NCBI RefSeq assembly: GCF_036227605.1 | Contig: NZ_CP109487.1 | Span: 5,309,001-5,373,000 of the forward strand | Reading direction: 5' to 3' | From: Streptomyces sp. NBC_01439 | GTDB lineage: Bacteria > Actinomycetota > Actinomycetes > Streptomycetales > Streptomycetaceae | Length of the DNA stretch: 64,000 nucleotides | Part shown: positions 3,140-31,053 of the stretch, piece by piece | How the letters are laid out: each line of letters starts with the position of its first letter | Position numbering within the stretch: position 1 is the first letter of the stretch | Program-made: the position numbers and the translations under genes | Notes under the pieces: generated by a model | What the model was told of the DNA's origin: nothing | What the model saw: only the letters and a program-made list of their open reading frames with translations | Database searches by the model: none

Positions 3140-3277
3140 CTCGCGGTTCGGACGCCTGTCTCAGTCGCGCGAGCCTTCGGTTACAGTCTTGAACAACGCG
3201 AAGGACCACCGCATGCCGGGGGTCCCGCGCACAAACGCACCGGCGCGCCATAGAGCGCGTGTGCCGGTGCCATACCG

Positions 3278-3431
3278 CTCATCCAGAGGGGCAGAGGGAC
3301 ACGGCCCGTTGAAGCCCCGGCAACCCTCCAGTCGGTTCTCGCGATCGCGCGTCAGCGCTCGTCAGCGAGGTCCCCGGCTAGGGAAGGTGCCAATTCCGTC
3401 TCATGGCGAAGTGCGCCATGGGGAAGATGAG
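3278..3431 (+). promoter_or_regulatory. SAM-I (S-box) riboswitch overlapping the SD of metM
   Basis: Canonical S-box segments in order: CTCATC (P1 5' strand, 3278-3283), AGAGGGGCAGAGGGAC, GAAGCCCCGGCAACC, then GGTGCCAATTCC, and GATGAG (P1 3' strand, 3426-3431). The closing P1 strand runs into the ribosome site GAGGAG (3429-3434) of the next gene, with no poly-U terminator between. Ligand-stabilised P1 should therefore hide the SD and block translation (inference). The family is firm; the translational mechanism is read from the overlap. Confidence 0.94.
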
Positions 3432-3450
3432 GAGAAAGGGCCTCGCCATC

Positions 3451-4725
3451 ATGGCTGCACAGACTGTCGCCACCTCTGTTGATCTCGGACCCGCCACCGG
3501 CCTTTCCTGTCGCGAGTGCGGTACCCGTTTCGAGCTCGGCCCCATCTTCGCGTGCGCCGAATGCTTCGGACCGCTGGAAGTCGCCTACGACCTGCCGACC
3601 GGCGACCCCGAGGCCCTGCGCGCCGCGATCGAGGCCGGTCCCAACAACATCTGGCGCTACGCGCCGCTGCTGCCCGTCCCCGCGGACGTGGCGTCCAAGC
3701 CCAGCCTGAACCCCGGCTTCACCAAGCTCGTGGACGCGGCCAACCTGGCCAAGGAGCTGGGCATCACCGGCAAGCTCTACGTCAAGGACGACTCCGGCAA
3801 CCCGACGCACTCCTTCAAGGACCGCGTCGTGGCCATCGCCGTCGAGGCCGCCCGCGCCTTCGGCTTCACCACCCTGTCCTGCTCCTCGACCGGCAACCTG
3901 GCCGGCGCCGTCGGCGCCGCGGCCGCCCGGGCCGGCTTCCGCTCCTGCGTGTTCATCCCGCACGACCTGGAGCAGGGCAAGGTCGTCATGGCCGGTGTGT
4001 ACGGCGGTGACCTGGTCGGCATCGAGGGCAACTACGACGACGTCAACCGCTTCTGCTCCGAGCTCATCGGCGATCCGCTGGGCGAGGGCTGGGGCTTCGT
4101 CAACGTCAACCTGCGTCCGTACTACGGCGAGGGCTCCAAGACCCTCGCCTACGAGATCTGCGAGCAGCTCGGCTGGCAGCTGCCCGACCAGATCGTGATC
4201 CCGATCGCGTCCGGCTCGCAGCTGACGAAGATCGACAAGGGTCTGCAGGAGCTCATCAAGCTCGGCCTCGTCGAGGACAAGCCGTACAAGATCTTCGGCG
4301 CCCAGGCCGAGGGCTGCTCCCCGGTGTCCACCGCCTTCAAGGCCGGTCACGACGTGGTCCGCCCGCAGAAGCCGAACACCATCGCGAAGTCCCTCGCGAT
4401 CGGCAACCCGGCGGACGGCCCGTACGTCCTGGACATCGCCCGCCGCACCGGCGGTTTCGTCGAGGACGTCAACGACGAGCAGGTCGTCGAGGCCATCAAG
4501 CTCCTCGCGCAGACCGAGGGCATCTTCGCCGAGACCGCGGGCGGCGTGACCGTCGGCGTGACGAAGAAGCTCATCGAGGGCGGGCAGCTCGACCCGACGC
4601 TCACCACCGTCGTCCTCAACACCGGTGACGGCCTCAAGACCCTGGAGGCGGTGGCCGCGGACAGCGGGCAGACCGCCACCATCCGCCCGAGCCTGGACGC
4701 GTTCCGCGCCGCCGGCCTCGCCTGA
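3451..4725 (+). CDS. metM: Threonine synthase homologue (ThrC-like PLP enzyme), probable homocysteine synthase MetM
   Basis: 424 residues from the ATG after GGAGAAAGG. An upstream in-frame ATG at 3403 lies inside the riboswitch and is rejected. Seen: an N-terminal zinc-ribbon-like pair SCRECG and ACAEC, the PLP-lysine motif HSFKDR, a SSTGNLAGA loop and the phosphate-binding IASGSQL stretch of fold-type II threonine synthases. Streptomyces normally keeps thrC in the hom-thrC-thrB cluster. This copy is instead followed by a sulfur-carrier gene and governed by SAM. That matches the MetM/MetO route described in Streptomyces, where O-phosphohomoserine is converted to homocysteine using carrier thiocarboxylate as sulfur donor. 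The family is certain; the MetM role rather than plain threonine synthesis is inferred from context. Confidence 0.88.
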   Translation: MAAQTVATSVDLGPATGLSCRECGTRFELGPIFACAECFGPLEVAYDLPTGDPEALRAAIEAGPNNIWRYAPLLPVPADVASKPSLNPGFTKLVDAANLAKELGITGKLYVKDDSGNPTHSFKDRVVAIAVEAARAFGFTTLSCSSTGNLAGAVGAAAARAGFRSCVFIPHDLEQGKVVMAGVYGGDLVGIEGNYDDVNRFCSELIGDPLGEGWGFVNVNLRPYYGEGSKTLAYEICEQLGWQLPDQIVIPIASGSQLTKIDKGLQELIKLGLVEDKPYKIFGAQAEGCSPVSTAFKAGHDVVRPQKPNTIAKSLAIGNPADGPYVLDIARRTGGFVEDVNDEQVVEAIKLLAQTEGIFAETAGGVTVGVTKKLIEGGQLDPTLTTVVLNTGDGLKTLEAVAADSGQTATIRPSLDAFRAAGLA

Positions 4726-4761
4726 TCCTCTTCCTCCTGCACCCGGAAAGGCAGTAGCGCC

Positions 4762-5040
4762 ATGAGCGTCAACGTCCGCATCCCCACCATCCTGCGCACC
4801 TACACCGGCGGCGTCTCCGAGGTCCCGGCCGAGGGCGCGACCCTCGCCGAGGTCATCGAGTCCCTGGAGAAGAACCACCCGGGCATCGCCGCGCGGGTCC
4901 TGGACGACCAGGGCAAGCTGCGCCGCTTCGTGAACGTCTACGTCAACGACGACGACGTGCGCTTCGAGGGCGGGCTGCAGGCGGCGACGCCGGACGGCGC
5001 CGGCGTCTCGATCATTCCGGCCGTCGCCGGCGGTTGCTGA
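4762..5040 (+). CDS. metO: ThiS/MoaD-family sulfur carrier protein, probable MetO
   Basis: 92 residues, 36 bp after metM and in the same transcript; SD GGAAAGG. A small ubiquitin-fold protein: VNVRIPTILRTYTGG at the start, LRRFVNVYVNDDDVR in the middle, and a tail ending VAGGC. Family members are adenylated and thiocarboxylated on a C-terminal diglycine. Here one cysteine follows the GG, so activation would need a peptidase to trim it, as known for some carriers cut by JAMM metalloproteases. The likely partner is MetM, in the way CysO pairs with CysM. The activating E1 enzyme and the protease are not in this window. Confidence 0.86.
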   Translation: MSVNVRIPTILRTYTGGVSEVPAEGATLAEVIESLEKNHPGIAARVLDDQGKLRRFVNVYVNDDDVRFEGGLQAATPDGAGVSIIPAVAGGC

Positions 5041-5098: not shown

Positions 5099-5132
5099 AA
5101 TTGCCCCCTCCGCTAAAGCGGAGGGGGCAATT
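5099..5132 (+). terminator. Strong hairpin terminator after metM-metO
   Basis: A perfect 16-bp inverted repeat: AATTGCCCCCTCCGCT at 5099-5114, loop AA, and its complement at 5117-5132, then TCTGCTT. It lies 58 bp after the metO stop and ends the riboswitch operon. A second small hairpin (GTCACCG-CTC-CGGTGAC, about 5070-5086) precedes it. Confidence 0.85.
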
Positions 5133-5465: not shown

Positions 5466-5672
5466 ATGGCTCAGGGCACCGTCAAGTGGTTCAACGCGGA
5501 GAAGGGCTACGGCTTCATCGCGGTCGACGGTGGTGCGGATGTGTTCGTCCACTACAGCGCCATCCAGATGGACGGGTACCGCACCCTTGAAGAGGGTCAG
5601 CGGGTCGAGTTCGAGATCTCGCAGGGCCAGAAGGGTCCGCAGGCGGACATGGTCAAGCTCGCACTCGGCTAG
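5466..5672 (+). CDS. Cold-shock domain protein (CspA family)
   Basis: 68 residues, the standard single cold-shock domain. Seen: [15 protein letters not shown] containing RNP1 (KGYGFI), and DVFVHYSAI containing RNP2 (VFVHY). It binds single-stranded RNA/DNA in the cytoplasm and melts mRNA structure. The ATG at 5466 is chosen over one at 5421 because it follows GGGGAGTTAGGC and gives the exact family N-terminus MAQGTVKWF. It lies between the sulfur-carrier operon and groEL and has its own leader and terminator. Streptomyces carries several such paralogues; another is at 51242. Confidence 0.95.
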
Positions 5673-5805: not shown

Positions 5806-5832
5806 CTTGCACTCGGAGGGGTCGAGTGCTAA
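5806..5832 (+). promoter_or_regulatory. Upstream CIRCE-type HrcA operator (imperfect)
   Basis: CTTGCACTC-N9-GAGTGCTAA. The right arm is a perfect CIRCE half; the left arm matches TTAGCACTC at 7 of 9 positions. It overlaps the predicted groEL promoter, so HrcA bound here should block RNA polymerase. It is one of two operators in tandem. Confidence 0.8.
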
Positions 5833-5835
5833 TCA
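5807..5835 (+). promoter_or_regulatory. Predicted vegetative promoter of groEL
   Basis: TTGCAC (5807-5812), a 17-bp spacer, then TAATCA (5830-5835), a fair match to HrdB-type promoters. It is fully embedded in the first CIRCE element. The transcription start is not determined. Confidence 0.5.
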
Positions 5836-5841
5836 TTGGCG

Positions 5842-5868
5842 TTAGCACTCTCCGGTTGAGAGTGCTAC
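5842..5868 (+). promoter_or_regulatory. Downstream CIRCE HrcA operator
   Basis: TTAGCACTC-N9-GAGTGCTAC, matching the consensus inverted repeat except the last base. It starts 9 bp after the first operator, so the four half-sites alternate with regular 9-bp spacers. It lies downstream of the predicted -10, in the leader about 130 bp before the groEL start. Confidence 0.92.
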
Positions 5869-30505: not shown

Positions 30506-31053
30506 CGACGACTCCAGGTGAGAACAGACACGCCTTCGGACCCTCCACAAGTACTACGGCACACCCGCCGCCGCACACACTTTCGCAACAGGCCCAGGTG
30601 TGTCGTCCCTTGCGGTCCTGCCGGGCCCGCGGCGGCCCGGGGTGGCCCGGGGTGCCGGACGCCGCGGGCTCGGCCGACATGATCCGAAGGAGGCGACCCC
30701 GGTCCCGTCCCCCGGCGGACCGTACGGGCCGGAGCCGTCCCGCCGCCGCCGCACCACCTGACCTGCGGACATCGCTCGTTCACCGGAGTCCGCCCGGTGG
30801 GACTCCGGCGGGAGGGACGATCCCAGGATTCAAGACACGAGAGGGAAAGCACCACACCAAACCCCACCCCTCCCGCCCATGGCGCACGCTCACTCGCTTG
30901 GGTGAAAGATGCCAACTTGGCTGGCTTCGGGGAGGGTTGCCTGATCTACGCTCAGCGCGACACACCACATGACCGCTGACACACGTCGGCCCCCGCCGGG
31001 ACTGCAATCCCAGTGCGGGGGCCTGACCACCGAGGAAGACAGACCCCTTCCTG
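30506..31053. other. 548-bp intergenic region with a hairpin and an SD-occluding stem
   Basis: No coding sequence supported. Features: hairpin GGCCCCCGC / GCGGGGGCC (30988-31023), and immediately after it AGGAAG (31033-31038), the probable SD of the next gene, able to pair with CTTCCT (31047-31052) just before the ATG. The pair could regulate translation. The rest (30551-30930) is GC-rich without clear signals. Confidence 0.5.

Follow-up and report, generated by a model that had tools for sequence, protein, structure and literature searches.

The window, by which we mean the whole 64,000-nucleotide stretch of the Streptomyces sp. NBC_01439 genome that was analysed, carries a regulatory leader followed by two genes, all on the forward strand. 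The leader is a SAM-I (S-box) riboswitch aptamer (3276..3433), which matches the Rfam covariance model RF00162 over its full length (model positions 1-108) with 75.5 bits (gathering threshold 44.4; E-value 6.7e-16). A search of the genome, a single contig of 9.58 Mb, in which 150 of 565 first-look candidates were scored, found no other RF00162 match. The Rfam alignment pairs CTCATC at 3278..3283 (the 5' strand of the P1 helix) with GATGAG at 3426..3431 (the 3' strand), as the original prediction had proposed. The end of the aptamer lies 17 nucleotides from the ATG at 3451, which opens a metM-type gene (3451..4725). Its product, of 424 residues, is a ThrC-like PLP enzyme of the MetM clade, predicted to be an O-phosphohomoserine-dependent homocysteine synthase. 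After a gap of 36 nucleotides there follows a metO-type gene (4762..5040) for a ThiS/MoaD-family sulfur carrier of 92 residues (Pfam ThiS, 60.7 bits) with the C-terminus AVAGGC; its score with NCBIfam SAMP1, 57.2, is just under the cut-off of 60. The matches to RF00162, to TIGR00260 and PALP, and to ThiS confirm the three elements that had been recognised from the letters alone: riboswitch, ThrC-like enzyme and ThiS/MoaD-like protein.

We infer that the riboswitch, metM and metO form one transcript. It is probably ended by a perfect 14-bp inverted repeat at 5100..5131 (+ strand), read by eye, which is not followed by a T-run and was not flagged by a terminator pattern scan. The next gene downstream, at 5466, encodes a cold-shock protein. 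Two further features of the window were recorded: an inverted repeat at 5824-5850 upstream of a groEL-like gene, GAGTGCTAA-N9-TTAGCACTC, which we take to resemble the CIRCE operator with its arms in opposite order, and the Streptomyces sRNA scr4677 at 30801-31053 (RF02673, 175.6 bits). An alternative start for metM exists at 3427, inside GATGAGG. Since the frame of this upstream ATG differs from that of the metM start in 25 of 60 Streptomyces leaders, the start is placed at 3451.

The enzyme scores 268.7 bits with the threonine synthase model TIGR00260 (cut-off 167.1) and 217 bits with Pfam PALP, and the solved structures that come closest to it are those of threonine synthases (2zsj, E-value 2e-51). 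Among the database matches listed, the named ones come from other Streptomyces (for example, S. goshikiensis, 96% identity), and those with a source name are labelled threonine synthase. The score with the threonine synthase model PRK08197, 264.5, is below its cut-off of 303. The original prediction had suggested looking for a second thrC in a hom-thrB cluster, and one is present: a canonical thrC, flanked by hom and thrB, is found at 3.45 Mb in the same genome, with 36% identity to the window MetM, so that the metM-type gene is not the only thrC of the strain. A tree was built from 62 proteins (30 MetM rows, 30 ThrC rows and two further ThrC-like proteins of the window genome); in it the MetM and ThrC rows are split by a branch with support 100/99, and the window enzyme groups with the MetM clade, not with the ThrC of the hom-thrC-thrB cluster. 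The two sets differ at 27 positions that are at least 95% fixed in each. Several of these adjoin the PLP-lysine, STGN and phosphate-loop motifs. In a phylum sample of 296 Actinomycetota genomes, MetM (E-value ≤1e-100) was found in 109 and ThrC (E-value ≤1e-60) in 217; 106 of the 109 MetM genomes also have ThrC, the exceptions being G299, G153 and G115.

The arrangement is conserved in the genus as sampled. MetO is matched in all 61 Streptomyces genomes of the sample, and RF00162 once in each of 60. The window genome aside, 58 of the 60 Streptomyces loci that were fetched contain both the leader and MetO; in the two exceptions (G001 and G018) the contig ends between leader and MetO. The MetM sequence was read from 58 fetched loci.

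In the phylum sample, RF00162 is present anywhere in the genome in 90 of the 109 MetM genomes versus 68 of the 187 others. In at least 74 of the 109 it immediately precedes metM: 66 among the matches listed, to which G299, G302, G308 and G342 and then G153, G182, G334 and G347 were added. Nineteen MetM genomes gave no RF00162 match, and 16 have one in the genome with no adjacency to metM among the matches listed; in one of these 16 (G126), a scan of the stretch upstream of metM gave no match. MetO lies beside MetM in 27 of the 29 best phylum loci and is absent from L095 and L108. L095 has the riboswitch and metM; both there and in L274, a metM with riboswitch has no MetO that could be found nearby. 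Another 20 loci, 15 of them picked for their lack of RF00162, gave MetO beside MetM in 10. One family (f15) has neither an RF00162 match nor MetO beside MetM in any of its nine MetM genomes; canonical ThrC is present in the genomes of these loci (L257, L258, L260-L265 and L267). Among 80 named loci, which include Cyanobacteria, Nitrospirota, Chloroflexi and others, MetO is within the MetM flank in 76. Of these 80, 40 were searched with Rfam at gathering score, and RF00162 was found in 17 of 18 loci with actinobacterial titles, in neither of two Nitrospira-type loci and in three of 20 others (two Chloroflexi/Dehalococcoidia and one Verrucomicrobia). The trio is present throughout the sampled Streptomyces and in relatives from other classes and phyla.

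One of the loci without MetO and without an RF00162 match before the distant metM relative (L108, genome G063) carries a different regulator. A T-box leader (L108, 1181-1449) precedes the gene with 75.1 bits, below the curated threshold of 93, and an E-value of 1.7e-16. Its specifier, read by eye from the alignment to the consensus UUC, is AUG (Met), and a terminator-like hairpin, also read by eye, stands before the gene as well. Scanning 20 further loci gave no T-box before metM, and we recognised no paper on such an arrangement in the open-licence literature. PMC12452182 lists Bacillota in which thrC itself has a T-box, and the telling point is therefore the Met specifier. A swap from SAM sensing to tRNA-Met sensing, as the sequence of this locus would suggest, fits a methionine enzyme. 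Although this is one case, it provides regulatory evidence for metM function that is independent of the SAM switch.

Components for sulfur delivery are encoded elsewhere in the window genome. An E1-like activating enzyme with a rhodanese domain is present as a MoeZ-type protein of 394 residues (ThiF, 286.6 bits; Rhodanese, 55.4 bits; L252, 1090-2271). A mec-cysO-cysM cluster was also found (L007, 803-2726). MetO is 60% identical to the CysO of the same genome, which ends GGSK instead of GGC, and the closest solved carriers to MetO are of the CysO type (4n6e_B and 3dwg_C). In 20 Streptomyces, the CysO tail after Gly-Gly consists of two varied residues in 19 and is longer in one. Within the fetched stretch, mec is absent upstream of cysO in several Streptomyces genomes.

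We read the locus, with a probability of about 0.93, as a metM-metO operon whose products make homocysteine from O-phosphohomoserine under SAM control. This interpretation, which the original prediction had put forward, is supported by the canonical thrC elsewhere in the genome, by the clade of its own that MetM forms, by the occurrence of carrier and riboswitch in 58 of 60 Streptomyces loci and in relatives from other classes and phyla, and by the MoeZ-type enzyme. MetM, a threonine synthase paralogue, would take O-phosphohomoserine from the threonine branch. The sulfur needed to give homocysteine would be carried as a thiocarboxylate at the C-terminus of MetO, for whose activation the MoeZ-type enzyme is probably responsible. 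The end product SAM would bind the leader aptamer and stabilise P1 beside the Shine-Dalgarno sequence, and translation of metM would be lowered; SAM binding and lower expression are the predicted function of the leader. The MetM reaction itself is assigned by analogy with that described by Hasebe et al. 2024.

Two other readings have to be weighed. The enzyme could be an ordinary second threonine synthase isozyme, its SAM riboswitch doing no more than adjust the threonine branch at times of ample methionine. The TIGR00260 match above cut-off and the names given to the source-named database matches listed would agree with this; so would the in vitro threonine synthase activity of a cyanobacterial homologue, as summarised in PMC12172450. 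We nevertheless reject it as highly improbable because the same genome has a canonical thrC with hom and thrB (and 106 of 109 MetM genomes have ThrC), the MetM clade is separate with many fixed differences, a metO-type sulfur carrier lies beside the gene and one metM relative is under a Met-specifier T-box. We know of no role for a sulfur carrier in threonine synthesis.

Alternatively, MetM could be bifunctional, making homocysteine when MetO is available and threonine when it is not, so that the loading of the carrier would set a switch at the branch point. Its homology to ThrC is in keeping with this idea, and PMC12172450 reports dual activities for a cyanobacterial homologue. The three genomes with MetM and no ThrC at an E-value of 1e-60 (G299, G153 and G115) could be cited in the same sense, but a ThrC of theirs may be more divergent than this limit allows, or the assemblies may lack part of the genome (that of G115 is a draft with 93% completeness). 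The window strain, having a canonical ThrC, does not need a second activity, and we regard bifunctionality as unlikely. The evidence supports the view that a 'threonine synthase' with a SAM riboswitch and a carrier neighbour is a methionine gene.

As to how the riboswitch acts, the original prediction proposed translational repression, with the 3' strand of P1 sharing bases with a Shine-Dalgarno sequence GAGGAG. With no more than 17 nucleotides between aptamer and start, control of translation is still the preferred reading; the overlap does not hold up as well. The likelier Shine-Dalgarno sequence is AGAAAGG at 3433..3439 (+ strand), beside P1 and not inside it, with an aligned spacing of about 8 nucleotides to the ATG at 3451 by hand count. 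One base separates it from P1. Its duplex with the 16S 3' end is calculated at -9.2 kcal/mol (3432-3445) versus -7.8 kcal/mol (3426-3434) for the GAGGAG region. We have therefore set GAGGAG aside, given its weaker duplex and a spacing of about 15 nucleotides by hand count.

In 60 leaders, folded by a procedure that leaves the tertiary aptamer out of account, forcing P1 lowers the openness of the seven-base Shine-Dalgarno window in 50 (mean 0.72 to 0.59). The accessibility of the AUG does not follow: it is not lower overall (mean 0.52 free and 0.54 with P1) and falls in 25 of the 60. Folding thus speaks only faintly for sequestration of the Shine-Dalgarno sequence by P1, which we have not adopted, and the P1-forced models agree weakly with translational repression by SAM. 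A possible alternative hairpin, GAGG 3429-3432 with CCTC 3441-3444 (3429..3444, + strand), would be exclusive with P1 and, with P1 open, would leave the Shine-Dalgarno sequence in its loop. CCTC is present in 60 of 60 leaders; GATGAGG was itself part of the leader search pattern.

It had also been suggested that the genome be searched for other homocysteine genes. Such genes are present: metX (NF047917, 539 bits against a cut-off of 475) and metY (NF005872, 830 against 703) lie side by side at about 9.16 Mb, towards the end of the chromosome contig (L010, 296-2838), and there is a cystathionine gamma-synthase-type (metB-like) gene (PRK07811, 682 against 513). A gamma-lyase-type gene was also identified (PRK07582, 548 against 440). 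No SAM-type riboswitch was found in the fetched metX-metY locus at an E-value of 0.01. With metX-metY and the metB-like gene present, the idea that MetM/MetO is the strain's only homocysteine route is not supported. The route may be redundant here, and deletion of metM therefore need not give methionine auxotrophy. With both MetM/MetO and MetX/MetY, the strain would be ill suited to an auxotrophy test by deletion of a single gene. MetX occurs in 17 and MetY in 16 of the 61 genomes sampled from the genus; since MetM/MetO is found throughout, MetX/MetY is a sporadic addition.

The C-terminus of MetO requires separate comment. In the window protein the Gly-Gly, the expected site of adenylation, is present with one Cys after it. 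Among 59 Streptomyces, 36 have nothing after AGG, 22 have C and one has A, and the best 120 database matches include 67 with C, 52 with an empty tail and one odd case. Labelling each row as GG or GGC gives about 16 changes on the MetM tree of 59 rows, of which at least nine are forced by well-supported branches. The labels do not cluster clearly on this tree, values as low being obtained in 64-65 of 500 shuffles. GG strains read GGN-TGA and GGC strains GGN-TGC-TGA (21 of 22, with TGT in the other). This pattern suggests that Streptomyces MetO has probably flipped repeatedly between GG and GGC by slippage of a CTG/TGC triplet before the stop. Selection for Cys in the tail was dropped as a first explanation because the codons fit such a triplet duplication and the label changes, at least nine, show no clear clustering. 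It follows from the flips and the slippage-like codons that the extra Cys is either trimmed or harmless.

The CysO-cysteine adduct, which is cleaved by the Mec peptidase, shares its covalent end with the Gly-Gly-Cys of the window MetO. MetO-Cys could then be a pro-form from which Mec, or some other peptidase, removes the Cys; we consider this unlikely. With the window genome aside, mec lies beside cysO in 12 of 22 GGC genomes, the contig ended in one and mec was not found in the fetched cysO stretch in nine; trimming by Mec is only partly compatible with this distribution and was not retained. If MetO-Cys were a pro-form, GGC strains would need a cysteine-route peptidase in order to make homocysteine, and the GG/GGC flips across Streptomyces would constitute a natural experiment on carrier maturation.

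Several known systems can be compared with the window operon. In the CysO/CysM/Mec+ route of Mycobacterium, the thiocarboxylate of a carrier supplies a PLP enzyme with the sulfur for cysteine. The logic of PLP enzyme and carrier thiocarboxylate is that of MetM/MetO, but the acceptor there is O-phosphoserine and the enzyme CysM-type, whereas MetM/MetO would use O-phosphohomoserine and a ThrC-type enzyme. HcyS/HcyF of Wolinella likewise has a carrier thiocarboxylate as sulfur donor for homocysteine; it differs in using a MetY-type enzyme and an acetylated acceptor, MetM being ThrC-type.

PMC4365011 states that a SAM riboswitch is missing from metE, metH and metK in streptomycetes. In S. lividans TK24, SLIV_16930-SLIV_16925 appears in PMC8079986, with its position, as one entry with RF00162 followed by two genes. 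As far as that description goes, it resembles the window in having a SAM-I riboswitch and a two-gene unit; the entry is labelled threonine biosynthesis, not methionine as read here. The closest system is that of S. albulus, in which MetM has a SAM riboswitch upstream and prevents methionine auxotrophy (Hasebe et al. 2024, Appl Environ Microbiol 90:e01247-24, as reported in PMC12172450). The cyanobacterial homologue, according to the account in PMC12172450, has threonine synthase and deaminase activity and does not act fully as MetM in cells. We recognised no further paper on MetM/MetO in the open-licence literature. Judged from its leader, its carrier and its relatives, the window operon is almost certainly the MetM/MetO route already described by Hasebe et al. 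2024. Compared by description, the S. albulus system shares with it the ThrC-like enzyme, the neighbouring carrier and the SAM riboswitch, and the difference that we note is that the window strain also has metX-metY.
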